The translations under genes were made by a program, and so were the position numbers. From Prochlorococcus marinus str. MIT 9401 (GTDB taxonomy: Bacteria; Cyanobacteriota; Cyanobacteriia; PCC-6307; Cyanobiaceae), in assembly GCF_000760095.1 (NCBI RefSeq), contig NZ_JNAR01000015.1, forward strand, positions 1 to 64,000: DNA of 64,000 bases, read 5' to 3'. The notes below the pieces were generated by a model, which ran no database searches, had not been told where the DNA came from, and saw only the letters and a list, made by a program, of their open reading frames with translations. How positions within the stretch are numbered: position 1 is the stretch's first letter; each line of letters opens with the position of its first letter. This document shows positions 5,896 through 26,266 of the stretch, piece by piece.

Positions 5896-5969
5896 CGGGG
5901 CGTGGCGCAGCTTGGTAGCGCGGGTGCTTTGGGAGCACTAGGTCGCAGGTTCGAATCCTGTCGCCCCGA
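5896..5969 (+). tRNA. tRNA-Pro (anticodon UGG)
   Basis: A complete cloverleaf: acceptor CGGGGCG/CGCCCCG, D-stem GCGC, anticodon stem GGTGC/GCACT with loop TTTGGGA (anticodon TGG), T-arm with GTTCGAAT and discriminator A. 3' CCA is not encoded. This is the only intact copy in the window and the anchor of the cassette array: its 3' 43-46 bases (from the anticodon stem on) are the repeated attachment core. Confidence 0.97.
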
Positions 5970-5988
5970 CTCTCTAAAACCAAGTCAT

Positions 5989-6016
5989 AGACAGCATTCC
6001 CAAGCTGTCTTTTTTA
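5989..6016 (+). terminator. tRNA-Pro terminator
   Basis: AGACAGC..GCTGTCT hairpin followed by a T-run, 20 bp after the tRNA. Equivalent hairpins, with different but compensating stem bases, follow most tRNA 3' repeats of the array. Confidence 0.85.
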
Positions 6017-6229
6017 TTTTGTAAGTAGTCTCATATTTAGATTTGCCCCTCCAGTAGCCCCTCCTGAGCTATAGCTTGCTATTACTTGCACCTATTGGTG
6101 CTCCTTTTGCCCCTCTAGTCGTAAACTTTCTCCTGGTCTAATATCTCCCTCTTATATCCTTCCGATAGTTCATCATCATATCTACATTGCTCAATTATCT
6201 GGACTATCTCGGAGATAGCTAAATAAATT

Positions 6230-6880
6230 TTATTTAAAGTATCTACATGCACCTTCAAGCATTGCTTCACCATTTGAATTACGGACAACTGGAATCATTT
6301 CAACTTTATGTTCTGTCCCAGGATAATACTTGTACCACATTGGATGGTCTTCATTATCTAACTTTATATATTTTCTATCTGGCTTATTTTCCCCTACTGA
6401 ACTATCTAATTTATCGTCATAATTATATTTTTCGGGATATCCATCAATTATCCTCTCAGGTGGATAGTATGAGCCGCTACCTCCCGTATATGCAGTAGCG
6501 CTAGTTCTATTCCTGCAATCATAGTATTGATCAAGGAAACTATAACCATAAATCCTCATTTGCGAGGGGTCTTTTTTTAATTGATATGAATTTCTTAGAG
6601 ATCTCTCAATAACAACTACTTTAATAAGATTAGAACTTATTCTTCCTGACTTAGTTTCATTATAAAAAAAAGATCTATCATACTCTAAAAAATTAAACCA
6701 TAAGTTATTTTTCCTTAATGCCCCTTCATACCAAAAAGCTCTTTTATATATCCCGCTATGTTTTGGAATCGCTCTTTCAGGAATTATTAATTTTTTTGGA
6801 GCAGAAAAAACTTCGTTACTATAAAATAATGTACTTAGTAGTATAAAAATAAATATATTTTTACTTGGTTTAAGTTTCAT
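6230..6880 (-). CDS. Secreted hypothetical protein
   Basis: 216 residues from ATG 6878-6880, where a signal peptide begins (MKLKPSKNIFIFILLSTLFY, cleavage near VFSA). An upstream in-frame TTG would overlap the preceding gene and place residues before the signal peptide. The mature part is rich in Tyr and Lys and has two Cys (YDCRNRT, EGACRYF) that could form a disulfide in the periplasm. No family recognised. It follows the gene ending at 6888 after 7 bp, so the two are probably co-transcribed. Confidence 0.65.
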   Translation of the reverse strand: MKLKPSKNIFIFILLSTLFYSNEVFSAPKKLIIPERAIPKHSGIYKRAFWYEGALRKNNLWFNFLEYDRSFFYNETKSGRISSNLIKVVVIERSLRNSYQLKKDPSQMRIYGYSFLDQYYDCRNRTSATAYTGGSGSYYPPERIIDGYPEKYNYDDKLDSSVGENKPDRKYIKLDNEDHPMWYKYYPGTEHKVEMIPVVRNSNGEAMLEGACRYFK

Positions 6881-6887
6881 AAATATA

Positions 6888-7391
6888 TTATTTTTGACAG
6901 ATAAATTTAACAATTTTTTTGGAGCTGTACTTTATTTGATCTTTACCTTGTGTAATTGTGTTGTGAGAGAAACTTGCGTACAGTTCATCTCTATTGTCTA
7001 GGCTCTCTAATTTTTGAAAGCTTATCCATTTAGGTTTTGAACTTATTTGCCTTTTGGTATTTATATTATCTAAAAATAATTTTTTATTTTCGCAATCTAA
7101 AATGATAAATCTTTTACCATTTGAGAAATAATTTTTTCTTTTAATGAATTTATATGGTTTAAAGGTTGCTTGATTTTCTTCAAGAGGGAGAACTCTATAA
7201 ATTCCAAATTTATACTTTCCAAAAGTAGTTAATGAAGCTTTATCAACTTGTGTAATAACTTTTTCATCATTATTTTTAAAACTTGAAATACTCTCCCATA
7301 ATTCTGCTTGTGTGGGTAAATTACCTAACAGAAAAAAAATAGTAGAAGTATAAAAAAAAATTACTTTGCTTAACTTTCTTTTTAAAGACAT
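6888..7391 (-). CDS. Secreted hypothetical protein
   Basis: 167 residues with an N-terminal hydrophobic signal (VIFFYTSTIFFLLGNLPTQA). The remainder is Lys/Phe/Ile-rich with a Cys pair (ILDCENK, IVKFICQK). It starts 2 bp after the stop of the protease gene upstream, so the genes at 6230-9328 form a tight minus-strand unit, all exported proteins. The pattern of a surface-exposed protein (WISFQKLES..) resembles the surface-adhesin-like family seen next to proteases, but this is not certain. Function unknown. Confidence 0.65.
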   Translation of the reverse strand: MSLKRKLSKVIFFYTSTIFFLLGNLPTQAELWESISSFKNNDEKVITQVDKASLTTFGKYKFGIYRVLPLEENQATFKPYKFIKRKNYFSNGKRFIILDCENKKLFLDNINTKRQISSKPKWISFQKLESLDNRDELYASFSHNTITQGKDQIKYSSKKIVKFICQK

Positions 7392-7393
7392 AA

Positions 7394-9328
7394 TTAATTA
7401 AAAAGATTTCCTGAATGATCTTCGCACATATAATTAAACCAATTTTCAATATGTTCGCTTACTTCTATTTCTATATCTTTTGATAATTTTTTACTTTTCA
7501 ATAAATCATTGCAAGCCTGATTTCCGTCTCCCATTGTGTACCAACTATTAGCTCTGATTTCATAAAAACTAATCAATTTTTCAAAATCTTTTCTATGTTG
7601 AGGGTTTTGGATCGATTCAATTGCGGCGGTATAGTCAATAATACTTTTACCATCATTTTTGCTGGCTCTGTTTATACCTCCCCTAAAAGCATATAAGTCA
7701 TAAATTTTTGGGGTTTCTAAAACAATTTCTCTTACTGCTCTATGGAGCATATCATTTGGATATGGAGAATGATTATTTTTTAAATTTAAGATTGCTTGGT
7801 CTAAATATTCTAAAGCAAGTTTATAATTTTTATCCCCATACTCTAAAGTTGCTAATTTATATGGAGCTATAACACTATTTGGTACAAGCTCTTTAAATTT
7901 CAAGACATCCAATTTAGATCCAAATACATCTCTGCTATATTCCTTTGCTCTAGACCTTCTTAAATAAGCTAACGAATATGAAGGATCAACTTTGATCGCT
8001 TTATCATAAAAGCCTATAGATTTTGCAGGATTAACTAAACTATAGTTTGCAACCCCAAGTAAGAGATAATTTTTCGGATTATAAGGATCTAGTTCTATAG
8101 CTTTTTTAAAATCAGATATAGCGGGTTCCCTAGTTATCCCATATTTTTTACCCTCTTTAAACCACAAGAAATAATTAGCAATGCCTCTATATGAAAAGTA
8201 ATTCGCTTCTTTAGGATCGAGTTCTATTAAATAATCAAAGACTTCTTTTGCTTTTATTTGCTGATCTAAAAGTGAAAATATTTCCCCTTTTGTTTGAAGG
8301 TATTTTGTATTCTTAGGACTCATCTCAAGAGCTTTATTGAGGTCATTTAGAGCAGAATTATTTTCTCCAATATTGGATTTAGCGAGAGCCCTTACATAGT
8401 AAGCTTCATGATCTTCTTTTTTCAGAAGTGCAAGTGTTGATAATAAAATTACCTTTTGATCATCACCACCAAATTCAACAAAATTTTTGGCTCGTTGCAA
8501 ATCCGAAATATTTTTTACATCTCTCTGTTTATTAGTATTTAAGTTTTTAACTGGAATATACTTACTCAAAAATCTAGAAGTAACCTTGCTAGAAATCGCA
8601 AAATTTAATCCTACGGAATCCTCTAGCTTAAAAGTATTTACTCCTACTACACAACCAAATTGATCAATCAAAGGTCCACCAGAGTTACCAGGATTAAGAG
8701 CTGTATCAGTTTGAATAATATTAGCGCTATCTCTCATACTGCTAATTACACCTTTCGTTAAGGAGAAATCAAACCCTTCAGGGGATCCTAAAGCAATAAC
8801 ATCTTCGCCAATTTCTGGTGCTGTTTCTTTTAATGGGAGCACTGTACCTAAAATACCTTCTACTTCAAGCAATGCTAAATCAGTTTTTTCAGTTCTTCCG
8901 CCTGCATTTAGAATAACTCTTGCAATGTCTTCATTACCATCTTCCCAAGATATAAGAACTTTTTTTTGAACCCCAATTACATGACTATTTGTGATAATTT
9001 GCGTTTTACCATCAAAATGACCAACAACAAAACCACTTCCACTAGAGTCTTTAGTTTTAATTACAACCACTCCAGGGAAAATTGATTTACTAATATTTTT
9101 TATTAATTTACCCGTACAAATTTTATTTTTGAAACTTGAATTTTGATTACTTTTTTTTCTTAAAAATAAATTTGGAAAACTAAACCCTTTGTTCTTTGAG
9201 TTGAATTTTATACATCCTGAATAATCGGCAGCTTTTAAACATTTCTGATGTAAATCATCTTCAATAGTGGCAAGTATGGGCAAGCTGTTAAATAAAATTA
9301 TTGGAATTATTAATAACTTAGATTTCAT
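7394..9328 (-). CDS. Secreted HtrA-like trypsin-type protease with C-terminal TPR repeats
   Basis: 644 residues: signal peptide (1-20), trypsin-like domain about 75-250 and several TPRs about 270-610. The catalytic triad can be read as H116 (TNSHVIG), D150 (KTDLALLEV) and S216 (NPGNSGGPL). It lacks a PDZ domain, unlike Deg/HtrA; the TPR array replaces it (ALNDLNKALEMSPKNTKYL and similar). Presumably a periplasmic quality-control or processing protease whose TPRs select partners, perhaps the two secreted proteins encoded directly downstream. It is large cargo for a tycheposon-like cassette without a recombinase. Confidence 0.88.
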   Translation of the reverse strand: MKSKLLIIPIILFNSLPILATIEDDLHQKCLKAADYSGCIKFNSKNKGFSFPNLFLRKKSNQNSSFKNKICTGKLIKNISKSIFPGVVVIKTKDSSGSGFVVGHFDGKTQIITNSHVIGVQKKVLISWEDGNEDIARVILNAGGRTEKTDLALLEVEGILGTVLPLKETAPEIGEDVIALGSPEGFDFSLTKGVISSMRDSANIIQTDTALNPGNSGGPLIDQFGCVVGVNTFKLEDSVGLNFAISSKVTSRFLSKYIPVKNLNTNKQRDVKNISDLQRAKNFVEFGGDDQKVILLSTLALLKKEDHEAYYVRALAKSNIGENNSALNDLNKALEMSPKNTKYLQTKGEIFSLLDQQIKAKEVFDYLIELDPKEANYFSYRGIANYFLWFKEGKKYGITREPAISDFKKAIELDPYNPKNYLLLGVANYSLVNPAKSIGFYDKAIKVDPSYSLAYLRRSRAKEYSRDVFGSKLDVLKFKELVPNSVIAPYKLATLEYGDKNYKLALEYLDQAILNLKNNHSPYPNDMLHRAVREIVLETPKIYDLYAFRGGINRASKNDGKSIIDYTAAIESIQNPQHRKDFEKLISFYEIRANSWYTMGDGNQACNDLLKSKKLSKDIEIEVSEHIENWFNYMCEDHSGNLFN

Positions 9329-9447
9329 TTTCTGCTGGTCTCAGAAACATCTTAATTGAATATTAATCAAATGTTTTATTATTCATAATTAAAAAAACAA
9401 GTAATCTTTTATCAAATCTTCTCAACTTTTATTTTAAGTAAAAAGAT

Positions 9448-10554
9448 TTAAGCAGCTAAATTTCTATAACGTCCGAATTGTGGTTCAAACAACATTTTTA
9501 CAGTCCCAACTGGGCCATTTCTATGTGTGGTGACAATCAACTCGGCGATACCCCTATCCTCTGTATCTGGATCATAATATTCATCTCTATAAAGCATTAC
9601 GATGATATCTCCATAATCTTCAAGCACTTCAGAATCTCTAAGGTCAGATAACATTGGTCTGCAATTGTCTCTTTCTTCAACTCCTCGCGATATAGGAGCA
9701 GTAATTAAAACAGGTACATTAAGCTCTTTTGCTAAACTTTTAAGCTCCCTAGTATATGTATTTAATTGAGCTTGATAATTATCTAAGTTTAAACACTCCA
9801 TCATGTGATAAGAATCAATTACTATTAGCCCTAAATTTTTCTCATCATTGGTCAAAGATATATTCCTACATCTATTTTTTATTTCATCAATTGAGATGGC
9901 TTTTTTATCCTCTAAAAATATTGGAAGAGCTTCAAGTTTTTTATTCTTTTTATGAACTAGTTCCCACTCCTCAGAAGTAAATCTTCCTGTTCTTATTCGA
10001 CCAATTTCTATACCAACCTCCATGCCTAATAACCTGTATGCCAATTCTTCTTTACTTAAATCAAACCCGAAGAAACAAACTGGAAGATTTTGACCTGAAA
10101 TATTTCTAGCTAATTGCAAAGCTAATGAGGTTTTCCCCATAGATGGGCGTCCCGCAAAAGCGATCAAATCTCCTCTTCTTAATCCTTGAGTCATCGCATC
10201 AAAATCTAAGAATGAGGTAGGTATACCAGCCGAAGCATTTCCTAATGAAATATTCTCAATTTCAGTAAAGTTTTTTTTAAGAAGATATTTTAAACTAGTT
10301 GTATCGCTAATTTCCTCTGAGTTTTCACTAGATTCTTCAGCATGCTTAGATTTGGATTTATCAGTTAAGTCTCTTAGTTTTTGTATATATTTAATTTCAA
10401 TTAATTTCGCCTTACTAATTTCAATTCCTAGTTTTAATGCTATCTCCTTAAGAGTGAGAGGCTCTTCGCCATCAATTCCAAACCTCAATTTCACTACTTC
10501 TCTTTCTTCTTTAGACAAACTATCAAGCCAGGTAGTCAAATCTTTTTTATCCAT
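9448..10554 (-). CDS. DnaB-type RecA-fold ATPase fused to a sigma-70 region 4-like domain
   Basis: 368 residues. Residues 1-65 (SKEEREVVKLRFGIDG..LTLKEIALKLGI) read as a sigma-70 region 4 helix-turn-helix. After a Ser/Glu-rich linker (about 66-95) comes the C-terminal helicase domain of DnaB: Walker A GRPSMGKT at 135-142, LIVIDSYHMM as Walker B, and the DLRDSEVLEDYGDIIVMLYRDEYY region with the arginine-finger area. The N-terminal DnaB domain that binds primase is missing. It may be an element-encoded replicative helicase, or a DNA-binding ATPase recruited to a promoter or -35-like site. Alone on its transcript, divergent from the small gene at 10613. Confidence 0.8.
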   Translation of the reverse strand: MDKKDLTTWLDSLSKEEREVVKLRFGIDGEEPLTLKEIALKLGIEISKAKLIEIKYIQKLRDLTDKSKSKHAEESSENSEEISDTTSLKYLLKKNFTEIENISLGNASAGIPTSFLDFDAMTQGLRRGDLIAFAGRPSMGKTSLALQLARNISGQNLPVCFFGFDLSKEELAYRLLGMEVGIEIGRIRTGRFTSEEWELVHKKNKKLEALPIFLEDKKAISIDEIKNRCRNISLTNDEKNLGLIVIDSYHMMECLNLDNYQAQLNTYTRELKSLAKELNVPVLITAPISRGVEERDNCRPMLSDLRDSEVLEDYGDIIVMLYRDEYYDPDTEDRGIAELIVTTHRNGPVGTVKMLFEPQFGRYRNLAA

Positions 10555-10612
10555 TATTATTAAAATCTGTTTTACTTTTATAATTGACTTCTAGAAAAAA
10601 ACAATAGCAATT

Positions 10613-10768
10613 ATGAAAAATTATATTATTTCGGGCCAAGTCGATACCTACAGAGTAAAAGTAAATCTATTTGCTGGATCTCCAAATTCTGCCATAAATA
10701 TTTTTAAGCAAAAATACCCCAAAGCAGAAGATATTTTCGTTATCCAAAATCTCTTTAAAAAAGGATAA
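10613..10768 (+). CDS. Small conserved hypothetical protein
   Basis: 51 residues (MKNYIISGQVDTYRVKVNLF...). The pattern YIISGQVDTYRVKVNLFAGSPNSAINIFKQKYPKAEDI, broken into strands and one helix, looks like a compact alpha/beta protein with normal codon use. Divergent from the DnaB-like gene with 58 bp between. Function unknown. Confidence 0.6.
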   Translation: MKNYIISGQVDTYRVKVNLFAGSPNSAINIFKQKYPKAEDIFVIQNLFKKG

Positions 10769-10950
10769 TTTAAATCCTAATTTCAAAGTGGCACTAGGTC
10801 GTTAAAGAGCCCCTCCGAGAGCCCCTCCCGACTAATATCATGCTATTTCAAGCAATATCAAGCCCCTTTTTCTGTCTCAAAAAAGATCAAACAACAAATA
10901 ATTTTCTAGTGATACCAATGTTTCTTATCAATCTCTAAAAAAAATCTCTT

Positions 10951-10996
10951 GTGCTTTGGGAGCACTAGGTCGCAGGTTCGAATCCTGTCGCCCCGA
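10951..10996 (+). repeat. tRNA-Pro 3' repeat (attachment site), 46 bp
   Basis: Identical to the last 46 bases of the tRNA gene, from the anticodon stem to discriminator A. It is followed by TCAGTTATAGCAGTAAGTCT, the left-end sequence shared by cassettes I2, I3 and I7, and has no terminator after it. Confidence 0.95.
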
Positions 10997-11182
10997 TCAG
11001 TTATAGCAGTAAGTCTCAGCTAATAATAAATTACACCAAAAAAGTCTGCACCCAAAATGCACCCAAAAGAATAAATTTTTTTAAAAAATAATGCGTTTTT
11101 ACAATATAAATCTGTTTGAATAAGCTCATTTACAAAGTCTCACTTTAAAAAGTAGTGATAATATTATCAAAAATATTTTTTA

Positions 11183-11857
11183 ATGAAAAAGCTTTTACTT
11201 ACAACTTCTTTCTTATTAACTTCTTTAGCAGCCCCATTACTAGCTGAAGAATCAAAAAGTATATATTTATCTATTGGAGGAGGTATAGCTTCCCCAAGCG
11301 ATGTAGAAGGTGATACTACTCTTGGTGGAACAAAATATGATGCAACCTTTCCTACCGATAATACTGGTTTCTATTCAGCCGCAATAGGAAAAAAATTCAA
11401 TGATTTCAGAATTGAGTTTAACTATGCTCAAGCAGATGTAGATACAGATTCAATAACACTAACTACTGGAGGAAATGGAGTAACTGCTTCCATCTCACCA
11501 AACCTAGAAGTAGAAGTAAAAAGTTATATGTTTTATGGGTATAAAGATTTCCCAAATGAATCAAAATTCACTCCATATATCGGATTAGGCTTAGGTTCTT
11601 CAACTTTTTCTGCTAAAGATCAAACAGCAACAGTTTCTGGAACAAGATACAGTTTAAAAGGTACTGAAGAGTCTGTATTCTCATATGCAGCAAAAGGAGG
11701 TGCTGACTATGAAATATCAGATAACACTTCATTATATTCCGAAGTTACATATCAAAAATTTGCCTCATACGACGTTACAGAGCCTGGTTACGAAACAGTC
11801 AATTATGACTCACATGACTTGTTTGCTGTTTCTATAGGTTTAAAATTTAATTTCTAA
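11183..11857 (+). CDS. Outer-membrane beta-barrel protein (OmpA/OmpX-like fold)
   Basis: 224 residues: signal peptide MKKLLLTTSFLLTSLAAPLLA, then eight or so amphipathic strands (FYSAAIGKKFNDFRIEFNYA, YMFYGYKDFP.., TPYIGLGLGSS, SLYSEVTYQKFAS) and a final FAVSIGLKFNF ending in Phe. The pattern matches the small eight-stranded barrel families found in surface proteins. Sole gene of its cassette with an AT-rich promoter region (GATAAT at about 11156) 20-30 bp upstream. A cargo gene that alters the cell surface could change phage adsorption or grazing, but this is inference. Confidence 0.85.
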   Translation: MKKLLLTTSFLLTSLAAPLLAEESKSIYLSIGGGIASPSDVEGDTTLGGTKYDATFPTDNTGFYSAAIGKKFNDFRIEFNYAQADVDTDSITLTTGGNGVTASISPNLEVEVKSYMFYGYKDFPNESKFTPYIGLGLGSSTFSAKDQTATVSGTRYSLKGTEESVFSYAAKGGADYEISDNTSLYSEVTYQKFASYDVTEPGYETVNYDSHDLFAVSIGLKFNF

Positions 11858-11977
11858 ATTTTTGCACCCAAAATACACCCAAAAAGAATAATTTTATTCT
11901 GATTTAGTCGATACTCTAATCGCCAAAACCCCTTCTTATAAATATAAGTCTCAGTCATAGCCATATTTTAGCGGGTT

Positions 11978-12020
11978 CTTTGGGAGCACTAGGTCGCAGG
12001 TTCGAATCCTGTCGCCCCGA
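11978..12020 (+). repeat. tRNA-Pro 3' repeat (attachment site)
   Basis: 43 bases identical to the tRNA 3' end (CTTTGGGAGC.. to the discriminator A); the anticodon-stem base before it differs (GCGGGTT instead of GGGTG). It is followed by the same class-A1 left end as at 10997. Confidence 0.93.
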
Positions 12021-12160
12021 TCAGTTATAGCAGTAAGTCTCAGCTAATAATATATTTCCCTCAAAAATACTTTCCCTCAAAATTCCCTCAAATGACTTTT
12101 TAAATTCACCAACAAACTTATTTAATCTAAATTCCAGTTGATAATATTTTGATAATTTCT

Positions 12161-12646
12161 TTATTGTGAATATAAACCGTAAAGAATCATTGAAGGAATC
12201 GCAGCAACAATCGTAAGTAAAAGACCAATAATAATCGATTTAAATACTCCTATTTCTTTTTTATTACTTTTAAGAAAAAGCCATCTTTGATAAGGGAATG
12301 TATATCCATAAAACATACCAATTCCAATTCCTAAACCAGTATTTACATCAATATTAAAGGGTATAGCTACAAAAATATCTAAAAGAAAAGCAATTATTCC
12401 AACGAACCAAAAATAGCTCCAATGCCTAATTTGAGTGGCTAATGCAAATGGAAAGAAAAAAGCAATCCAAGAGAAACCTACAAGTGGATCATCGCCATAT
12501 CTCCTACTAAAAGTATTTATCGATTTGCCTTGAGGTGAAATTAAATTGGGTATTAAAGTTCCTAATTGAGTTTTTAAACCATATCCTTTATCGATTAAAG
12601 AATCTATCTTCTCCATCTTCAATTTCATTTGAGGAGACAACGTCAT
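12161..12646 (-). CDS. Polytopic membrane protein
   Basis: 161 residues with a hydrophilic N-terminus (about 50 residues) and four predicted spans (VGFSWIAFFFPFALA, FWFVGIIAFLLDIFVAI, LGIGIGMFYGYTF, SIIIGLLLTIVAAIPSMILYG). The layout (FSWIAFFFPF, then a cytoplasmic Trp/Arg-rich loop) recalls DUF2628-type proteins, but this is a weak assignment. Second gene of the two-gene cargo of I3. Confidence 0.6.
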   Translation of the reverse strand: MTLSPQMKLKMEKIDSLIDKGYGLKTQLGTLIPNLISPQGKSINTFSRRYGDDPLVGFSWIAFFFPFALATQIRHWSYFWFVGIIAFLLDIFVAIPFNIDVNTGLGIGIGMFYGYTFPYQRWLFLKSNKKEIGVFKSIIIGLLLTIVAAIPSMILYGLYSQ

Positions 12647-12740
12647 ATATAAAAAACAATTGAACTAACTCTACTATTTGATGTGGCTGGTTAGTTATTA
12701 GATAACTCTTGAAATAAAAGAACTAGAGTCCTGAATAATT

Positions 12741-13037
12741 TTATTTATCTTTTTCTTCAGAGTATCCTCTTTCTCTACCGTACTCTAATGATCCTATTGT
12801 ATCTCCAGAATTTCTATAACCTTTACCTGTTACGTTACCAGCTATCGGATCAATAAGTGACTTGTTAGTGGGCCATACCGCCCATATAAAAGCTGCAAGC
12901 CAAGGTACTCCCGCTGCTATTGCAAAAGTATTTATTCCCAATATTACCCATTTGTAGGTATGCCTTCTCTGGAAAGCAATAAAAGTTGGGATAAAATAGA
13001 TAGCTAATAATATTAAACCTACTATTAAAAATTCCAT
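12741..13037 (-). CDS. Superinfection-immunity-like membrane protein
   Basis: 98 residues. Two adjacent spans with the arrangement YFIPTFIAFQRRHTYKWVIL, then INTF..GVPWLAAFIWAVWP, fit the T4 Imm superinfection-immunity family: Pro before I-A, a basic R-x-H turn, then Asn and a Trp-rich second helix. The hydrophilic tail is probably cytoplasmic. T4 Imm blocks DNA injection by related phages; in this cassette it would be a small anti-phage cargo. The family call rests on pattern only. Confidence 0.55.
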   Translation of the reverse strand: MEFLIVGLILLAIYFIPTFIAFQRRHTYKWVILGINTFAIAAGVPWLAAFIWAVWPTNKSLIDPIAGNVTGKGYRNSGDTIGSLEYGRERGYSEEKDK

Positions 13038-13221
13038 ATACTTAAGCGTTTTATTGATTTTACAAAATTGTTTAAATATAGATGAAATTTGTTTAATTCC
13101 AAAACTTTAATTCCCTCAAATTTCCCTCAAATGAATCTCAATTAGACCGAATTAGTCCATACTTTATTCCTTAAAAGTCTTGATATAGCTATAAGTCTCA
13201 GTTATAGCCTTGTTGATGCGA

Positions 13222-13267
13222 GTGCTTTGGGAGCACTAGGTCGCAGGTTCGAATCCTGTCGCCCCGA
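13222..13267 (+). repeat. tRNA-Pro 3' repeat (attachment site), 46 bp
   Basis: Identical to the tRNA 3' end. It is followed by CTCTTAAAAACCAAGTCATA and an AGCGAGT..ACTCGCT terminator hairpin (13290-13315), the equivalent of the native tRNA terminator. Confidence 0.95.
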
Positions 13268-13573
13268 CTCTTAAAAACCAAGTCATACTAGCGAGTTACC
13301 CAGACTCGCTTTTTTAATGGGAAAATTGACATCACTCTCTTGATGTCAGTTTGATGTCAAAATTCCGCCAAAATATATATAAAAAGTTCTTTTTACTAGC
13401 TCCATTCAAAATAATTGTTATTACTTTAAACTGGGGGTCCCTTATATTTTCAAAATTTTGATAAGGATAAGTCCTAAAAAGAAAGTTTATGGAATAATTG
13501 AAGTTTAACTTTGCATTAAATTCGTCTTAGTAACTCACTGTGTGTTAGTTTAAGATCTGTTTTTTTTAATAAA

Positions 13574-14056
13574 TTGTCTGATACCACAGAAAAAATTCTA
13601 AACTTTTCCAAAAAATGTCTTAAGGAAAGCCTTGTTTTTTATAAAGAAAAATCTATCTCTTTTTCAAAAAAATTTAATAAGTTAACTCCACCTAAACAAC
13701 TAACCTTTTTCATTGGAGTTATTCTAATCTCCTCATTTTCGGGTTACTATTTAGGACAAAAAAATAGCACTGCTTATAGGAGAGTAATTCCAAATTCAGA
13801 GATAAATAAAAATTCATCTGTATCTTCATCTACCTCTAGAAATTCTTCAAAATGTGATAGTGAACTATGGGCACAAGCGGGTTATCGATGCAAGGGAGAT
13901 AGAGACTGTCAAGGTAGAGTCTATGCCTCAATGGGTGGTTCTCTTAAGGGAATGACTGATTGCAATTTGAAAGTCTATAAAAGAAACATGGACGCTATTG
14001 ATAATCTATCAATAGAAGATTTCACAGGTGGTATTAAAATTGATCCGAATTGGTAA
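13574..14056 (+). CDS. Membrane-anchored hypothetical protein with Cys-rich C-terminus
   Basis: 160 residues read from a TTG at 13574, as no ATG is available before the membrane span. A basic N-terminus, one hydrophobic span (about 48-66, TFFIGVILISSFSGYYLG), a Ser-rich linker, then a domain with four Cys (KCDSELW, YRCKGDRDCQG, TDCNLKVY). The last part is probably periplasmic and disulfide-bonded. Sole cargo of cassette I4; an uninterrupted T-run precedes the start. No family recognised. Confidence 0.6.
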   Translation: MSDTTEKILNFSKKCLKESLVFYKEKSISFSKKFNKLTPPKQLTFFIGVILISSFSGYYLGQKNSTAYRRVIPNSEINKNSSVSSSTSRNSSKCDSELWAQAGYRCKGDRDCQGRVYASMGGSLKGMTDCNLKVYKRNMDAIDNLSIEDFTGGIKIDPNW

Positions 14057-14272
14057 CTTCCAAATCAAATAAATGATTATGTAACTTTGAGTATTATTGA
14101 GGATTTTTAAATAAAAACATAGTTTAGGCTGAGAAATTTAACTTCTCAATATTAAAGATTTAAGATGTCATTCTGATGTCAATTCTTCTCATTTTTGATA
14201 TAAGCAATAACGCAATACTATTCAAGATATGATTTATAGCTCGAAACCGTAGTGCTCGCTTTAGTATGTCGA

Positions 14273-14318
14273 GTGCTTTGGGAGCACTAGGTCGCAGGTT
14301 CGAATCCTGTCGCCCCGA
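14273..14318 (+). repeat. tRNA-Pro 3' repeat (attachment site), 46 bp
   Basis: Identical to the tRNA 3' end. It is preceded by GTAGTGCTCGCTTTAGTATG (class A2 right end) and followed by a GACAGG..CCTGTC terminator hairpin (14338-14364). Confidence 0.95.
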
Positions 14319-17006: not shown

Positions 17007-17122
17007 AAAAAATTATGTCATATTTATGTCATATGAGGGTATATTTGTCAGGATAAACTACGCAAGAGTACGCAAGAAAATAGATATAGCTTGAAAACGT
17101 AGTGCTCGCTTTGGGGTGTCGA

Positions 17123-17168
17123 GTGCTTTGGGAGCACTAGGTCGCAGGTTCGAATCCTGTCGCCCCGA
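17123..17168 (+). repeat. tRNA-Pro 3' repeat (attachment site), 46 bp
   Basis: Identical to the tRNA 3' end. It is preceded by GTAGTGCTCGCTTTGGGGTG (class A2) and followed by the GAGAGT..ACTCTC terminator (17191-17218). Confidence 0.95.
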
Positions 17169-17287
17169 CTCTTAAAAACCAAGTTGTACTAGAGAGTTTC
17201 CCAGACTCTCTTTTTTTTGTTTACATTCTCACATGAGAAAGGGGCTCTAGGGGAGGCTCTAGGATCTTCGAAGATCTAAAAAAAGGC

Positions 17288-17551
17288 TTACCATTTAGGT
17301 TCAGTTACTTGCCATCCTGCTGTGATTAATTGTTGATATTCTTTCCTGGCTTCTTCTATTTTTATCTCTTTTCTTGTTTTCATAAGTGGTGGAGATTCGC
17401 CATTAGAACCAACAACAATTCCAGAATCTACAAACATATACTCAAAAAACTTATCTTTATTATTTTTATTCTTGATAAATCTTCTTACCTCAGTCCAGTT
17501 AGGACATATTAACCATGCTTCCTCAGTTACTTGCTTAGAATATTTATCCAT
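17288..17551 (-). CDS. DUF1651 protein
   Basis: 87 residues: EEAWLICPNWTEVRRFIKN, then the YMFVDSGIVVGSNGESPPLM middle and the EEARKEYQQLITAGWQVTEPKW end. This is the full DUF1651 layout. A truncated copy of the last 14 codons persists at 28947-28990, and a second complete homologue is at 23836-24084. Function unknown; members recur as cargo. Confidence 0.8.
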   Translation of the reverse strand: MDKYSKQVTEEAWLICPNWTEVRRFIKNKNNKDKFFEYMFVDSGIVVGSNGESPPLMKTRKEIKIEEARKEYQQLITAGWQVTEPKW

Positions 17552-17562
17552 ACAGTTTTCAT

Positions 17563-17811
17563 TTACTTAGTAAGGATTTGGTCAAAATATTTTGCATATA
17601 AAACATTATTCATTTGTTGGCTCATAGGAAGATAGGTCAAATACATTAGGATTTCCTTCTCATCGTTTTTTGTGATTATATATTGAGAATTTTGTTTCCT
17701 AATCCATAATTTACATTCAGCAAATGAGGGATAATTTGGTTCTTTATCAATAATCCAATCCGCTAGACCGTTAAATAATTTTTCTTTAACTTCCTTGTTC
17801 AAATCAAACAC
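17563..17811 (-). CDS. Small hypothetical protein
   Basis: 82 residues from a GTG (MFDLNKEVKEKLFNGLADWI...). Soluble, mixed helical (PSFAECKLWIRKQ, KEILMYLTYLPMSQQM). Twelve bp upstream of the DUF1651 gene on the same strand. Codon use matches its neighbours. No family recognised. Confidence 0.55.
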   Translation of the reverse strand: MFDLNKEVKEKLFNGLADWIIDKEPNYPSFAECKLWIRKQNSQYIITKNDEKEILMYLTYLPMSQQMNNVLYAKYFDQILTK

Positions 17812-17839
17812 AAAATCAATACAGTTCCAATACTAAAAT

Positions 17840-18031
17840 TTATGTCCCAAACCTGTGAGTTAATCTCCAACTAAAAAGTTTTATGCTCCTTTTATAACTA
17901 CGTGCGAGGAAATAAAAGAAGCAATCTAAATCTACATTCTTTTTTGAGAAGTATTTATCACTTTTTTTACTTAAAACTATATCAAAAAGTTCAATATGAA
18001 CATTTTGAGATGAATAAATTATATTTACCAA
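17840..18031 (-). CDS. Possible small protein, uncertain
   Basis: 63 codons from a TTG, open and codon-plausible (DYFSKKNVDLDCFFYFLARS-like), but with no ATG and no ribosome site. It may be the 3' part of a degraded gene. Reported because the interval otherwise has no content. Confidence 0.3.
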   Translation of the reverse strand: MVNIIYSSQNVHIELFDIVLSKKSDKYFSKKNVDLDCFFYFLARSYKRSIKLFSWRLTHRFGT

Positions 18032-18105
18032 CCCTATTAATCTTTATAACTTCATAGAAAAAATTTTAGTAAGGAAATTTGTATAAAGCACCTTAGGTTG
18101 TTTTA

Positions 18106-18318
18106 TCAACAGCAAGAACAATCACCTTCTGATTGTGGGTGCACTGAAGTTAAAGCATCTGCGATATCTCTCAACATATCAGCGACATATTCTGGAGGGC
18201 ATCCAAATTTATTTACATAAGCAACGCTTTGTTTTGCCATCTCCGTATATGCTGGCAAGATCATGCTATCAAGCTGTTCCTTTGTGGGTTGCCACTTTAA
18301 TTCACAATTATCTGACAT
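18106..18318 (-). CDS. Small protein with C-terminal Cys cluster
   Basis: 70 residues. A helical body (EQLDSMILPAYTEMAKQSVA, VADMLRDIADALTSV) ends in EGDCSCC, a likely metal site, with further Cys near the N-terminus and in FGCPPEY. Transcribed divergently from the Cys-rich peptide at 18535, with a Fur/Zur-like palindrome between them, so both may take part in metal handling. Confidence 0.65.
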   Translation of the reverse strand: MSDNCELKWQPTKEQLDSMILPAYTEMAKQSVAYVNKFGCPPEYVADMLRDIADALTSVHPQSEGDCSCC

Positions 18319-18424
18319 TATTTTTGGATATAATTACTTTCAATTTAATGGTTGATAGGATTAATAACAATGAAACTATTTACTTTTAAATGTATAAATT
18401 AGTAATTAAATATAAAGCTCATTT

Positions 18425-18443
18425 AAAAATGATTTTCATTTTC
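18425..18443. promoter_or_regulatory. Fur/Zur-type operator candidate
   Basis: AAAAATGATTTTCATTTTC matches the classical Fur palindrome GATAATGATAATCATTATC at most positions (core AATGATTTTCATT). It lies in the divergent intergenic region of two Cys-rich small protein genes. The same type of box would also fit Zur; which regulator binds cannot be told from sequence. Confidence 0.5.
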
Positions 18444-18534
18444 AAATATAGTTTTAGTATTTGCTAGAATATATTGAAGCAATTGACTTTCAGCAAAAAA
18501 ATCTTTATATTTATAGAAGCTAATTTATCTTGTC

Positions 18535-18672
18535 ATGTTTACTTCTTTTTTTAAAAATATTTATCTAAATAATTTATCTATTTCTGACAATAAAGTATGT
18601 AGTGGGTGTGGCTGCGCCTGTCCTTGCGAATGTAAAGATTGCGAAGAATGCTCAACTTGTGGCGGTGATTAA
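18535..18672 (+). CDS. Metallothionein-like Cys-rich peptide
   Basis: 45 residues. The last 25 contain nine Cys, arranged VCSGCGCACPCECKDCEECS and TCGGD, with CxC and CxxC steps as in metallothioneins. The N-terminal 20 residues (MFTSFFKNIYLNNLSISDNK) lack Cys. It is unlike SmtA in order and in having no His. It probably binds Zn, Cu or Cd in the cytosol; a ferredoxin-type cluster is less likely given the crowding. Below usual gene-calling length. Confidence 0.65.
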   Translation: MFTSFFKNIYLNNLSISDNKVCSGCGCACPCECKDCEECSTCGGD

Positions 18673-18840
18673 ATATATTAACTTTGAAATGGAGGGGGCT
18701 CTAGAGGGGGCTCTAAGTTCTATAAACATCTTGTAGAATCTTCGAAGATTTAGCAATAAGCTGTCTCAAACTCGTTCCACCATCTATAATTAGTCTAGGC
18801 TATAACTAAAGACTCAAGGTTTTCTTAAAAATAACGCCCA

Positions 18841-18886
18841 GTGCTTTGGGAGCACTAGGTCGCAGGTTCGAATCCTGTCGCCCCGA
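18841..18886 (+). repeat. tRNA-Pro 3' repeat, left attachment site of I7
   Basis: 46 bases identical to the tRNA 3' end, followed by TCAGTTATAGCAGTAAGTCT (class A1 left end). Confidence 0.95.
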
Positions 18887-19050
18887 TCAGTTATAGCAGT
18901 AAGTCTTAGCTAATAATAATTTTCCCTCAAAAATTCTTTCCCTCAAAATTCCCTCAAAAGGGTTATTTACTGGTCTGGAATTAATTTTCAACTTTACATA
19001 AATATTGCAGACACCGCCCGACTTATTAGTATTAATACAGTTAAGTCTGA

Positions 19051-19221
19051 TATGGACTTGGCTTCCCTCTAGTTGATGGAGTCTTAGCGGGGCAACTCAT
19101 AAAAACTGGAAGAGAAGGCGGTAGAGCCATTATCGGAAAGGAGCTAGGAGACCGACCTATTGAGTCTGAATTTCAGACAATAAGTTGTAAGCATTTTTTA
19201 TTGTTCTTAGTGCTTGCTTAG
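19051..19221 (+). pseudogene. Gene fragment without start
   Basis: An open frame of 56 codons with no start codon (YGLGFPLVDGVLAGQLIKTG, REGGRAIIGKELGDRPIES). The composition is richer in Gly and Arg, with less A+T, than neighbouring genes. It looks like the remnant of a conserved gene acquired from elsewhere. Family not recognised. Confidence 0.35.
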
Positions 19222-19435
19222 TGGTCATGTAGGAAAAGGATTCTTCTGCCCTTTTCTGAAAGAAATCATTTGATTCTCAGGAGTCATTAATCACATTCCC
19301 CAGAAATGGGGTTGCTTGTCGTCAAACTATTCACGCTAATTCCTAAAAAAATTAGAAGTTTGCAGGGCGTGCGCTAGAGGGAAAAAGTGAATCACATTCA
19401 ACCTTTTGGGTTTGCTGTAATTTCACTTCTTGGCC
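19222..19435 (+). other. Structured leader upstream of the HTH gene
   Basis: Non-coding stretch with short hairpins: CCCC-AGAAAT-GGGG near 19293, AACC-TTTT-GGGTT near 19402 inside a longer AAGTGAA..TTTCACTT pairing (19385-19428). AATCACATTC occurs twice. It may carry the promoter or operator for the replication genes. Confidence 0.35.
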
Positions 19436-19714
19436 ATGTCAGATTTATTTGGACGTTTTGCAACGACTCGGCAAATTGAGCCGTTAATTGGGATAAAAGA
19501 AAAAACTTTATATCGACTTAGATTAAATGGTGTATTAGTAAAGGGTAAACATTACCGATTAAAAAATCCTTTAAATCCTAAATCTCATATTCTTTATGAC
19601 GTTGAGGCGGTCATTGCAGAATTAACAAGAGCAGATTTAGAGGAGAGATTAATTGAAAAAGATAAATTAGAAAAAAAGCAGAAAAAAATTACTAAAAAGG
19701 AATTTGTAGCATGA
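19436..19714 (+). CDS. Helix-turn-helix protein, AlpA/excisionase-like
   Basis: 92 residues from the ATG at 19436. TTRQIEPLIGIKEKTLYRLR, then GKHYRLKNPLNPKSHILYDVEAV, is the recognition-helix/wing layout of MerR-like excisionase or AlpA proteins; a basic coiled tail follows. It precedes the primase gene with a 4-bp overlap. A small DNA-binding protein in this position is the natural candidate for recombination directionality factor or for binding the iterons. Confidence 0.7.
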   Translation: MSDLFGRFATTRQIEPLIGIKEKTLYRLRLNGVLVKGKHYRLKNPLNPKSHILYDVEAVIAELTRADLEERLIEKDKLEKKQKKITKKEFVA

Positions 19715-20736
19715 AAAAACCCGCCATTGAGGGGCGGGCTAATTCACTTCGTACTGATATTCTACCCCAATTATGTTTGCTTGCTGATTCAGCCCAAGCG
19801 TTATGGATGTTGGATTTACTAGGCAAAAACGAAAGCACCGCCAGAATTAGAGCTATTGGTTTTAAAGGTTCAAAGTTACCAGTAATTAAAGGAAATTTTG
19901 CAGAATTACCAATTTTTACACAATGGAACGCCAGTAAGAGAGGAATTTATTTAGTTATTGGTAATGGCCATGATACTGATGACTCTATATATAATTGCCC
20001 TGCATTTTTTGTTGAATGGGATGATCTATCAGTAGAAATTCAGATTCAACAATGGCAAATATTAAAACTACCAAAACCCACTTTCCAACTTAAAACTAGC
20101 GGGAAATCGGTTCACTCATATTGGGTAACAAATGAGCCTGTAGCAAAGGAAAAATGGCAGCCAATCCAAACACGCTTAATAGATTATTGCAAGGCTGATA
20201 AGAATAATAAAAACCCTTCTAGGGTAATGCGTTTAGCAGGGTTCTACTACGTTAATAAACTTGGTGAAATTACTAATAAATCTAAAATTATTAATGTCTC
20301 CAATAGACGTTATTCTTTAACAGAATTTGTTGGTTATCTACCAGAACCAGTTAAGCCAACACCAAAGCCAATAGCTAAAACTATTGCTCCAGAACTAACA
20401 ACTAATAGAACTCTTATTGATATAGAGAAGGCATTAAATTGCATACCCCAAAGAGTTGAAGGGTCTAATACTTATGACAAATACAGGAACATTGCTTGGG
20501 GTCTTAAAAAAGCTGTAGTTGCTGTTGGTCATAGTGAAGAAACTGCATTAACACTATTAGAGAATCATTCTCCTAGTAGTAGCTGCGGTTGGAATATTCC
20601 TCAGATATTAAGAAGTGGAGGAGAGAGTATTGGTGAAGGCACATTTTGGTATTGGGCAATGGAAGCGGGATATAAACCTAAAACTAATAAACCATCTAAA
20701 GACTTTTGTTCAACATTAAAGGGGTTCTATGAATAA
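19711..20736 (+). CDS. Archaeo-eukaryotic-type primase with PriCT-2-like C-terminus
   Basis: 341 residues. The catalytic acidic motif FVEWDD (102-105), the SGKSVHSYW motif (130-138, with H135) and NPSRVMRLAGFYY (R171, R174) are the three motifs of plasmid/phage AEP primases. Residues 235-320 (DIEKALNCIPQR..YDKYRNIAWGLKKAV) match the PriCT-2 helical domain. It would prime element replication. It overlaps the helicase gene by 8 bp, giving a primase-helicase unit typical of satellites and integrative plasmids. Confidence 0.85.
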   Translation: MKKPAIEGRANSLRTDILPQLCLLADSAQALWMLDLLGKNESTARIRAIGFKGSKLPVIKGNFAELPIFTQWNASKRGIYLVIGNGHDTDDSIYNCPAFFVEWDDLSVEIQIQQWQILKLPKPTFQLKTSGKSVHSYWVTNEPVAKEKWQPIQTRLIDYCKADKNNKNPSRVMRLAGFYYVNKLGEITNKSKIINVSNRRYSLTEFVGYLPEPVKPTPKPIAKTIAPELTTNRTLIDIEKALNCIPQRVEGSNTYDKYRNIAWGLKKAVVAVGHSEETALTLLENHSPSSSCGWNIPQILRSGGESIGEGTFWYWAMEAGYKPKTNKPSKDFCSTLKGFYE

Positions 20737-21943
20737 ACTCACTCAAATAATTATGGCCTATGAATCTGGTTGGAAGGCTGTTAGTAGAAATGGTGATGTT
20801 AAACAAGTAACCTCAAAACTTTATGTTGGGCAATGGTCGGCAAGGTTAAAACAAGACTTGGGGAGTCGGCTTAAATTTAATGATCTAACTATGTTGGCTG
20901 AAATAGATGGCCAACCAATCAAAGGGGATGAAATAAAAAACGTATATATAGACCTTTGTGAGAGAGGTTGGGAAATTAGTGATACTGATGCAAGGAATGG
21001 ATTTATTAGGGCTGCTAAACACAATAGATATAACCCGCTTCAAGAGTATTTATTAAGGATAGAAAGTGACCCTAATGTTGTAGCTGCTGACATTGATAAA
21101 TTATCCACTAATTACTTAAAAACAGAGAAAAAGTTATATGACTCAATGCTTGCAGCTTGTTTAATTGGTGATGTTAATAGAGCCTTTGAACGTGGCTGTC
21201 AAATGGATTATTTACTAACACTAAAGGGCGAGCAAGGTATTGGGAAAAGTACGTTCTGGCGTACATTGGCGGGTGATTGGTTCTGTGATAGTTACCAAGA
21301 AAGTGATAAGGATTTAAGGTTGGCTATTGGTACTTGTTGGATGTTTGAAATACAAGAATTGGAGACAATGACTACTAGAAAAGTTGCGGGCAAAGTTAAG
21401 GCATTAATAACAACTAGAGAAGATGTTTTTAGACCTCCATACGGAATACTTACTGAGAAATTTCCCAGAGGTTCAATATTTGTTGGTTCTGTTAATAGTG
21501 ATGATTTTCTCAGGGATGATACTGGCTCAAGGCGGTACTGGATTATAGAAGTTGAATCAAGAATAGATATTGAAAAAGTTAGAAGTGATAGGGATGCTAT
21601 TTGGAAAGCTGCTGTAATAGCTTGGCGTTCTGGAAGAAAACCTGACTTAGAACGTAAGGAGTTAGAAGAGTCAGAACAACTTAATAAAGGCTATGAGTCA
21701 GAACATCCTTTTCAAATGCCATTAATGGATTGGTTGGATTCACCAAAGGGGCAAAGTGAATTTACTGCACATACAGCACTAATTGAATCTGGTATTAGAA
21801 CTCAAGAGAAAGTAACTAATCAAGATTTAAGGCAATGCCATATAGCTCTTAGAAGAATTGGCTATGAACCTGATAAAAACCAGACAAGAGTTGGAAAAAG
21901 TAGATTCAGATTATGGAGAAAGACTCAGACGACTCACTCATAA
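20729..21943 (+). CDS. VirE-type (virulence-associated E) replicative helicase
   Basis: 404 residues. P-loop GEQGIGKS at 167-174, followed by FCDSYQESDKDLRLAIGTCW, a Walker B-like MFEIQELE, then FRPPYGILTEKFPRGSIFVG and DTGSRRYWIIEV, which together form the PF05272-like core. The N-terminal 120 residues would couple to primase. With the upstream primase it forms the replication module of I7. The C-terminal winged region is rich in Arg and may bind origin DNA. Confidence 0.88.
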   Translation: MNKLTQIIMAYESGWKAVSRNGDVKQVTSKLYVGQWSARLKQDLGSRLKFNDLTMLAEIDGQPIKGDEIKNVYIDLCERGWEISDTDARNGFIRAAKHNRYNPLQEYLLRIESDPNVVAADIDKLSTNYLKTEKKLYDSMLAACLIGDVNRAFERGCQMDYLLTLKGEQGIGKSTFWRTLAGDWFCDSYQESDKDLRLAIGTCWMFEIQELETMTTRKVAGKVKALITTREDVFRPPYGILTEKFPRGSIFVGSVNSDDFLRDDTGSRRYWIIEVESRIDIEKVRSDRDAIWKAAVIAWRSGRKPDLERKELEESEQLNKGYESEHPFQMPLMDWLDSPKGQSEFTAHTALIESGIRTQEKVTNQDLRQCHIALRRIGYEPDKNQTRVGKSRFRLWRKTQTTHS

Positions 21944-22139
21944 TTTTTCTTCTGTGACACTCACACTCTCTCCCTTACAGTCGGTTTCACCATTTGTCTC
22001 ATTAACTCAGTTAATTTTTTATATAAAGAGAGAAAATATTTTTTTCTATATATATAGTAATTTTTTAAAAGTGCCGAGACAAAACACTAAAAACCACAAT
22101 GCGGAACTGTCGGCTAGGCAGAGTATCAGGACAGTTTGG

Positions 22140-22283
22140 GTGAGACTATGAGACTTGGTTATGTACTCAACTAAGGTTTTAGCTAGTGAGACAACAAGTG
22201 AGACAACTTTTTATAAATTTGGACAGAAAATAATTTTTGGACACGCCCCTAATCTCAATAGTTTTATAAGTCTTAGTGAGATT
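22140..22283 (+). repeat. TGAGAC repeat cluster, candidate replication origin
   Basis: GTGAGAC at 22140, ATGAGAC at 22148, GTGAGACAAC at 22186 and again at 22198, GTGAGATTGG at 22276, plus an inverted GTCTCAT near 21996. They lie in the AT-rich 346-bp gap between the helicase gene and the convergent packaging-type genes. No gene seen in the gap. Confidence 0.5.
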
Positions 22284-22289
22284 GGCATA

Positions 22290-22649
22290 TTATCCTTTGT
22301 AATTCCCATGATAAGGATTTTTCTTTTGGGGTCGATCTTTCAAAGTCATTTCCCACAATAGGCGATATGCACCGACTGCACTAGCATACTGGCCATTTTG
22401 CTCAGCTAAAAATCCTAGACGTTGGACTCGGTTCAGCATCCAACCCATAACCTCCTTATTATCTGCTGTTTCCCATGCCTTTATTAGTTCTTTGTCAGCC
22501 CAACTCAAGTCCGACATAGCACTCCTTCGGCTGAGATCGTAGTTGCTGACTAGATAGTCTATTAAATCACCCCTACTCCGCCCATTTTTCATCTGTTGGA
22601 GAGCATCCATACGCCTTCTTTTACGTTCAGCCCTAGAAGTTGTTGCCAT
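22290..22649 (-). CDS. Terminase-small-subunit-like DNA-binding protein
   Basis: 119 residues from ATG 22647-22649 (GGAGC seven bases upstream). The basic start (TSRAERKRRR) is followed by an HTH (GRSRGDLIDYLVSNYDLSRR, SAMSDLSWADKEL) and a helical C-terminal half (NRVQRLGFLAEQNGQYASAV..LLWEM). This two-part design is common in phage small terminase and related DNA-recognition proteins. In I7 it would redirect a helper phage's packaging to element DNA; an alternative is a transcription regulator. Confidence 0.5.
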   Translation of the reverse strand: MATTSRAERKRRRMDALQQMKNGRSRGDLIDYLVSNYDLSRRSAMSDLSWADKELIKAWETADNKEVMGWMLNRVQRLGFLAEQNGQYASAVGAYRLLWEMTLKDRPQKKNPYHGNYKG

Positions 22650-22845
22650 GTTGTAGCTCCATTTGATCTTCAGCTTCCCAAAGATAATTTTCCCAAATAT
22701 CTCTATAAGTCCAAACAAAACAGGTTGCAAATAGTTCTACTGTTAGTGGGTTAGCTGCCATTAATAAATCATCATTAGCAATAATTGAAATAGCATCTGC
22801 CATAGCTTGAACCTCCTTAGAAATAGTTGGTTTATCAGTAATCAT
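22633..22845 (-). CDS. Small acidic hypothetical protein
   Basis: 70 residues (MITDKPTISKEVQAMADAIS...), acidic and helical with Trp-rich TYRDIWENYLWEAED. It overlaps the following gene by 17 bp and the preceding by 4 bp (ATGA). Part of the four-gene minus-strand unit 22290-23587. Not recognised. Confidence 0.6.
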   Translation of the reverse strand: MITDKPTISKEVQAMADAISIIANDDLLMAANPLTVELFATCFVWTYRDIWENYLWEAEDQMELQHGNNF

Positions 22846-23186: not shown

Positions 23187-23188
23187 TA

Positions 23189-23587: not shown

Positions 23588-23835
23588 TAAGAAACCTCCT
23601 TAATTAATCTTCTGGACTGTGGTGAAGAAAGACTATTTAAATTAGCCAATAGTAGGCAGTTATAGTCTTGACTTTTTAAGCCTAATTCTCTTTTTAATTT
23701 GGTCTTAATTAAAGTCACTAAATAATATTTAATTACTGAAATTATACAATAAAAATATAAATTAAGCTATTATTAAAATGTGGCAACACAATAGGTAACT
23801 ACTAGGGAGTTGAGGGGTGCAGCCTTGACTCTCTT

Positions 23836-24084: not shown

Positions 24085-24161
24085 TATTAAATAAGCAATA
24101 AAAAAACAATAATTGATCCAATACTAAAAATTAAGCTCCACTCTTGGGATCTAATTTTCAT

Positions 24162-24518: not shown

Positions 24519-24525
24519 ATTGAAA

Positions 24526-25940: not shown

Positions 25941-26057
25941 CTAATTTTCCCTCAAATTTCCCTCAAATTCTACCAAACTAGTCCGAATTAGTCCACACTC
26001 TAAACCCTAAAAGTGTTGATATAGCTATAAGTCTCAATTATAGTCTTAATCTTGCGG

Positions 26058-26262: not shown

Positions 26263-26266
26263 TGTT

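Follow-up and report, generated by a model that had tools for sequence, protein, structure and literature searches.

We found that I3, an element without an integrase at positions 12021 to 13267 of the window, is probably a non-autonomous integrative element of a tRNA-Pro gene and that the repeats at its ends are likely arm-type sites, which would address it to a matching integrase acting in trans. The window is the whole 64,000-nucleotide stretch of the Prochlorococcus marinus MIT 9401 contig NZ_JNAR01000015.1 that was analyzed; features are on the plus strand unless noted. In the mechanism that we propose, the tRNA part shared by the elements would be the recombination core for a tyrosine recombinase of the type carried by the element I7, and the N-terminal domain of that enzyme would bind the TTCCCTCAAA repeats of the two ends as arm-type sites. 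A recombinase from I7, or from an incoming element of the I7 type, would excise I3 and insert it in trans. According to this model, an element with arm sites but no integrase gene would be moved by the matching enzyme, with the repeat acting as the address. The address would be private: the adjacent I2 has a similar core-adjacent sequence but appears to carry the address of a sister integrase. We infer the binding, the excision, and the role of I7 itself as the helper of I3 from comparisons of sequences.

An intact tRNA-Pro(TGG) gene called by ARAGORN (5896 to 5970) is the target gene and the head of an array. We found 10 more copies of the 3' end of this gene in the window (starting at 10958, 11982, 13229, 14280, 17130, 18848, 26065, 26853, 28767, and 30656), with 2 mismatches in the copy at 26065 and 3 in that at 30656. 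The tRNA sequence common to these fragments is about 40 bp. We took each interval between successive 3' copies as one element. ARAGORN also calls a second tRNA-Pro at 17098 to 17169. By eye, the 5' half of this call does not resemble the intact gene, and the call has the look of an element-end 3' fragment that folds by chance.

End, repeat, and integrase scans delimited I3. It is flanked by exact 39-mers of the tRNA-Pro 3' end, at 11982 to 12020 and, closing the element, at 13229 to 13267; this is the type of boundary by which tycheposons are recognized. From left to right, I3 contains a core-adjacent sequence, TTATAGCAGTAAGTCTCAGCTAATAATATA (12025 to 12054), with close counterparts in I2 and I7; an array of three TTCCCTCAAA repeats with spacings of 16 and 11 (12056 to 12092); an array of two such repeats with a spacing of 11 (13111 to 13131); and a right core-adjacent sequence, GATATAGCTATAAGTCTCAGTTATA (13182 to 13206). 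As initially annotated, there are two cargo genes among open reading frames of at least 80 amino acids, the sizes covered here. Gene 1 (12161 to 12646, minus strand) encodes 161 amino acids that are hydrophobic by eye, and its sole family match, to DUF2628, is under the curated cutoff. Gene 2 (12741 to 13037, minus strand) encodes a 98-amino-acid member of the Imm_superinfect family (PF14373; E value, 8.4e-9) that also matches PHROG 1039, "immunity to superinfection" (E value, 3.4e-14). Between I3 and its copy in the genome G117, amino acid changes were less frequent than silent changes in these genes, with dN/dS values of 0.26 for gene 1 (22 changes) and 0.06 for gene 2 (15 changes). PADLOC gave no defense match for either I3 protein or for the I7 integrase.

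I7 (18887 to 26103; 7,217 bp) has ends like those of I3 and carries an integrase. Its left array of three repeats lies at 18922 to 18958, and its right array of two lies at 25947 to 25967. It encodes a helicase/primase-like protein (19711 to 20736; PHROG 36873; E value, 7.6e-30, with the match covering part of the N-terminal region of the family), a VapE-like protein (20729 to 21943; PF05272; E value, 2.1e-60), and a 412-amino-acid tyrosine recombinase (24702 to 25940, minus strand), whose start codon is 6 bases from the right array. In an alignment of 26 integrases, R247, K272, R356, H379, and Y388 were invariant, and the position of the HxxR histidine was occupied by Y353. We take the five invariant residues to be catalytic in the I7 integrase. 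The protein thus has the catalytic residues by which complex tyrosine recombinases are recognized, and it matched the PHROG 1 integrase family (E value, 5.7e-11); its Pfam match was weak and under the cutoff (E value, 0.018). A Foldseek search with the model of the whole integrase returned XerA, archaeal Xer, XerH, the Tn1549 integrase, and a mycobacteriophage integrase at an E value of 0.001 or less. The N-terminal domain is predicted to fold as helix-strand-strand-strand-helix, and a helix, three strands, and a helix is the arrangement of arm-binding domains. Its model gave no Foldseek match at an E value of 0.001 or less. Compared with the arm-binding domain of the HPI integrase (3jtz), it gave a weak match over 59 residues (Z score, 4.0; 3.3 Å), and unrelated folds scored higher.

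We found that I3 and I7 carry the TTCCCTCAAA repeats at equal offsets, three on the left and two on the right, as had been claimed. Exact copies start at 12056, 12072, 12083, 13111, and 13122 in I3 and at 18922, 18938, 18949, 25947, and 25958 in I7. The window held no further mismatch-free copy, and we found no tandem pair (gap of 20 or less) in the whole genome beyond these four arrays. The two elements are homologous at their ends: the left ends are 94% identical over 72 bp, and the right ends are 85% identical over 157 bp. Interior matches between I3 and I7 had E values no better than 0.026. A search with 72 integrases (tblastn; E value, 1e-6 or less) found none in I3, and among these 72, the TTCCCTCAAA repeat adjoins that of I7 alone. 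This agrees with the initial annotation, in which I3 was non-autonomous and tied to I7. The same annotation had made I3 a miniature of I7 in the sense of a MITE; that part failed, with nothing of the interior of I7 kept, and we rejected I3 as a deletion derivative of I7 on the same ground. Because I3 and I7 match at their ends only, I3 is, as judged from these alignments, different cargo between ends of the I7 type and not a shrunken I7.

The other sequences that had been proposed as common to I3 and I7 fared less uniformly. TTATAGCAGTAAGTCTCAG is present in I3, but it is also exact in the left end of I2 (11001) and has one mismatch in I7, so it is not specific to the pair; a sequence like it occurred in 51 of 178 tRNA-Pro intervals from a wider pool of loci. 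Within the window, only I3 and I7 have exact copies of GATATAGCTATAAGTCTCA, but the genome G259 also has it, at the right end of an element that carries an integrase and a different repeat. Of the proposed stretch GxCCGAATTAGTCCA, the CCGAATTAGTCCA part is present at 13147 in I3 and at 25983 in I7. The initial annotation had also allowed that the shared ends might be common to all tycheposons. They are not as far as the repeats are concerned, and for the left core-adjacent sequence this is partly so.

The neighbors of I3 in the array carry other repeats. I2 (10997 to 12020) has no integrase, core-adjacent ends similar to those of I3, and the repeat TGCACCCAAAA (11047 and 11058 on the left; 11863 and 11874 on the right), with an apparent degenerate third copy at the left end by reading. 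Its repeat is that found beside the integrase of G259, which is 63 to 65% identical to that of I7. In G259, this repeat (GCACCCAAA) adjoins the start codon of the integrase gene, and the right core-adjacent end is nearly that of I7. Five more elements without an integrase were called: I1 (5970 to 10996; GCCCCTCC), I4 (13268 to 14318; TGATGTCA), I6 (17169 to 18886; GGGGCTCTA), I8 (26104 to 26891; GGGATCT), and I9 (26892 to 28805; TTAGCGATTA). The I1 repeat also adjoins an integrase in the genome G072 (contig C27, L145), and the I8 repeat adjoins one in G247 (C32, L162), whereas the I6 and I9 repeats each matched 0 of 72 integrases. The I4 repeat equals, by eye, the GATGTCA of integrases in L113, L151, and L152, and automatic matching gave none. 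In the window, therefore, I1, I2, I3, and I8 match an integrase by repeat, and I4 does so by eye alone. The repeat finder misses AT-rich repeats such as those of I5 and composite intervals such as I10, and neither was called. In I10 (28806 to 30694), a damaged second tRNA fragment near 29885 adjoins a repeat like GGGCGAGG, and the interval looks like a composite split by that fragment.

We then looked at the TTCCCTCAAA repeat across the genus. A tandem pair was present in 38 of 266 genomes; among those with completeness of 90% or more and contamination of 5% or less, it was present in 16 of 87. The reversed pattern, used as a control, was present in 0 of 266. We took 42 stretches around such pairs, plus the window, and called an element complete when it was bounded by tRNA fragments and had at least two repeats at each end, with one mismatch allowed. 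This gave 22 complete elements, of which 21 had no integrase (604 to 3,938 bp) and 1, I7, had one. The likeness among these 22 extended over about 72 bp at the left end and about 155 bp at the right; the repeat offsets were nearly constant, and the interiors were mostly unrelated. In these elements, which were chosen for their repeats, the mean share of the consensus base was 0.99 for the left core-adjacent sequence and 0.94 to 0.97 for the repeats, compared with 0.73 for the first spacer and 0.47 to 0.55 just inside. None of the 21 overlapped a tblastn match (E value, 1e-4 or less) to the I7 integrase, the VapE-like protein, or the primase-like protein. In G069 (L070, 5427 to 7232), two TTCCCTCAAA elements with different cargo lie head to tail.

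In named genomes, at least 80 loci had the repeat pair; of the 80 among the matches listed, 25 are in Prochlorococcus and 55 in other organisms, and we took the latter for chance occurrences. In viral contigs, the pair occurred in 11 stretches. None of these had a tRNA-Pro end or the left core sequence, and none matched any of the 72 integrases; no relative of P0001 was confirmed in viral contigs. In seven IMG/VR contigs (L284, L286, and L289 to L293), TTCCCTCAAAC repeats spaced at 11 bp lie next to ACAGGGAACAGGGATAT, and these contigs gave no match to tRNA-Pro or to the integrases. The repeats there may be sites of phage control or replication, unrelated to the elements described here.

Matches to the I7 integrase were found in 109 of the 266 genomes. 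Besides that of G000, only the G259 protein was full length and more than 60% identical (65%), and partial or broken relatives with 52 to 55% identity were present in G072 and G091. Likewise, of the 38 genomes in which the pair occurs, G000 and G259 alone had a full-length integrase at least 60% identical to that of I7, and the one in G259 has another repeat. This counts against our reading: in most cases the helper would have to be transient or already lost, or to have been missed because genomes are incomplete, unless the elements are dead.

We next compared the two ends of each interval in a pool of 103 loci. Because a locus entered this pool through its TTCCCTCAAA pair or its resemblance to the I7 integrase, the frequencies are not population estimates. 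We found the same tandem repeat at the two ends of 101 of 178 intervals; when ends were paired between different loci, 52 of 855 pairings shared a repeat (about 6%). Among the 101 intervals with matched ends, 14 had a full integrase, 1 had a remnant, and 86 had none. The repeat of an element without a full integrase was that of an integrase in the pool in 62 of 87 cases, compared with 15 of 4,337 letter-shuffled trials, leaving 25 of 87 without a matching integrase; when the 20 TTCCCTC-type elements were removed, 43 of 67 still matched. A second set consisted of 20 stretches picked by hand by tRNA fragment among the matches listed, leaving out previously analyzed stretches; G002, G006, and G019 also gave stretches to the pool, so its genomes are not wholly new. 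Here the repeats of both ends matched in 49 of 73 intervals, compared with 40 of 677 control pairings. The repeat matched an integrase of the pool in 23 of 49 elements, compared with 37 of 4,882 shuffled trials, and 26 of 49 had no matching integrase. No integrase was counted in the 73 intervals, a count that is biased low because the stretches of G002, G019, and G029 were cut short of known integrases.

Elements like I3 might instead be decayed CIMEs whose own integrase was deleted and which now move in cis with a neighbor or are immobile. Precedents exist: CIMEs with kept att sites stack in tandem behind a target gene in the part of PMC5704250 drawn on here, and in the part used of PMC3146451, Dehalococcoides ssrA islands without integration modules were interpreted as decayed. 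However, of all 178 intervals, 29 had a full integrase, only 3 had a remnant alone, and 146 had nothing at our threshold. The 21 integrase-less TTCCCTCAAA elements described above, with no match to any I7 gene searched, also argue against decay, as does the conservation of their repeats but not of their interiors, given that these elements were chosen for the repeat. We consider decay unlikely and favor mobilization in trans.

The repeat beside the integrase gene shifts along the tree of 72 integrases, with 11-bp spacing in the part that includes I7, 12-bp spacing in another part, and palindromic sites in a third. In a separate integrase clade (L110, L112 [526], L068, L062, and others), palindromic sites such as CTACGCAAATCCGTAG replace the tandem repeat at the start codon. 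We assigned tandem repeats by hand to 37 of the 72 integrases; the other 35, many of them palindromic or without a clear tandem repeat, were left out of the comparison that follows. For pairs of integrases with at least 60% identity, we compared residues 1 to 75 with the rest of the protein. Residues 1 to 75 exceeded the remainder in conservation by a mean of 3.7 points in the 14 pairs with the same repeat. In contrast, they fell short of it by a mean of 15.0 points in the 67 pairs with different repeats. Counted by pairs, the N terminus was less conserved than the rest in 1 of 14 same-repeat pairs and in 56 of 67 different-repeat pairs, as well as in 15 of the 16 different-repeat pairs with at least 80% identity; 11 of the 67 ran counter to the covariation. 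The pairs are not independent, and some repeat labels scored as different are nearly equal. The extreme cases were L150 and L149 (GCCGACAAAT and GCCAACAAAT), with 40% identity in the N terminus and 97% elsewhere, and L156 and L155, with 49% and 98%. Covariation of address and N-terminal domain is thus apparent in these alignments, as it should be were the repeat read by that domain. Two integrase-bearing elements, L149 1867 to 10993 (G123) and L160 3884 to 12987 (G008), are 87% alike and have different repeats (GGGGCGCT and GGGTAGCTA), as if the address had been exchanged within a lineage.

The repeats could also serve an excisionase or other protein. They might bind that factor, a replication initiator, or a repressor of the integrase gene and be linked to the integrase merely by traveling with it. 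The right array of I7, so close to the integrase start codon, is in a possible position for a repressor. On the other hand, in the closest integrase pairs, address and N-terminal domain differ together although identity over the remainder of the protein reaches 98%, and the arrays stand at both ends and are kept in elements like I3 that have no recognized replication gene. To us, a role confined to another factor seems quite unlikely, and arm-type sites remain the reading that we prefer. It could likewise be that homologous recombination reshuffles the arrays, with the tRNA fragments and flanking genes as the main substrate and integrases playing a minor part. The stretch of tRNA sequence shared by the fragments would provide the homology. 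Nevertheless, recombination of this kind does not account for two observations, that the repeats at the two ends of an element match and that repeat and integrase covary, and we judge it very improbable as the main source of array diversity.

Clusters of similar elements that span more than one genome numbered 20 (251 intervals). One 3,269-bp integrase-less element was 99.4 to 99.8% identical in five genomes whose polA genes were 79.3 to 96.0% identical; between G002 and G004, the values were 99.8% for the element and 79.7% for polA. Its flanks did not match in any of the 6 left and 10 right comparisons that were possible (the left flank in G007 is missing). An 8.2-kb integrase-less element was 99.9% identical in G160 and G011 (polA, 93.8%). 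A 1.2-kb integrase-less TTCCCTCAAA element was 95.5% identical in G109 and G069 (polA, 81.0%) and 85.4% identical in G109 and G096 (polA, 96.8%), and its neighbors differ in these three genomes where they are known. Neither G109 nor G069 is among the 109 genomes with a match to the I7 integrase (G069 is only 69% complete). These identities indicate recent spread of integrase-less elements, including one group of I3's own type, and near-identical copies among unrelated neighbors in divergent genomes would not be expected of decayed elements that move with one fixed neighbor. For I3, we found one close full copy, in G117, with 91.2% identity overall (polA, 87.3%). Its left repeats have decayed, as the decay explanation would have it. 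To its right is an element like I9 and not one like I4. We rejected this copy as proof of movement of I3 itself, since the array order fits inheritance; it may have been inherited vertically.

Cargo can also be found under more than one address. One cargo, 95% identical, has TGGGCGATC in G030 and ATAGCGATTA in G042, and a relative of I3 gene 1 sits in a G230 element with the address TCACGCAAA. Taken more broadly, and with somewhat less assurance than for I3, we lean toward a view of tRNA-Pro arrays as an open market of integrase-less cargo. The address would consist of a clade-level core-adjacent sequence plus private end repeats. It would be read by integrases located elsewhere, which keep their catalytic part nearly fixed but swap the N-terminal domain used for reading or evolve it rapidly. 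Most DNA that moves at these sites would do so without an integrase of its own, and cargo could change its address. If this is true, the helper of an integrase-less island could be read from the ends of the island, and trans-mobilization, usually a matter of guesswork, would become predictable for each element. It would also help account for the spread of very small cargo among streamlined ocean genomes. The integrase pairs that are 96 to 98% identical beyond the first 75 residues and differ in their repeats offer a test set for the evolution of arm-site specificity.

Tycheposons are packaged in capsids or vesicles, and their founding paper reportedly appeared in Cell in 2023. That paper lay outside our comparison; among the titles and abstracts listed, we found no paper on a private repeat that links integrase-less elements to integrases, and we do not claim that the idea is unpublished. 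As far as the cited portions go, tycheposons were first described from Prochlorococcus as tRNA-bounded elements with a tyrosine recombinase and cargo (PMC10872708) and are named as marine phage satellites (PMC11389934). I3 and I7 resemble them as tRNA-bounded elements with cargo, and the tyrosine recombinase that belongs to the definition is present in I7 but absent from I3. A MITE shares only its ends with an autonomous element, and in this I3 is alike. However, I3 carries intact cargo under purifying selection and sits site specifically in a tRNA gene. Some phage satellites carry primase and VapE-like genes, as I7 does, and PICIs and other satellites resemble I3 in depending on another element. 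In contrast to them, neither I3 open reading frame of at least 80 amino acids was a packaging, capsid, or phage-hijacking gene by Pfam and PHROGs, and the dependence that we argue for is on an integrase. The Dehalococcoides ssrA islands are arranged in tandem at one RNA gene, 15 of them without an integration module; they use a serine recombinase, and the part of the report drawn on here describes no private end address (PMC3146451), unlike the system of I3. CIMEs are integrase-less tandem islands known, in the part of PMC5704250 cited, to keep their att sites and to grow by accretion. I3 likewise lacks an integrase, appears from its sequence to keep attL and attR, and lies in a tandem array. 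The elements described here differ from CIMEs in that traces of lost integrases are few, end repeats fit different integrases, and near-identical copies lie among different neighbors.
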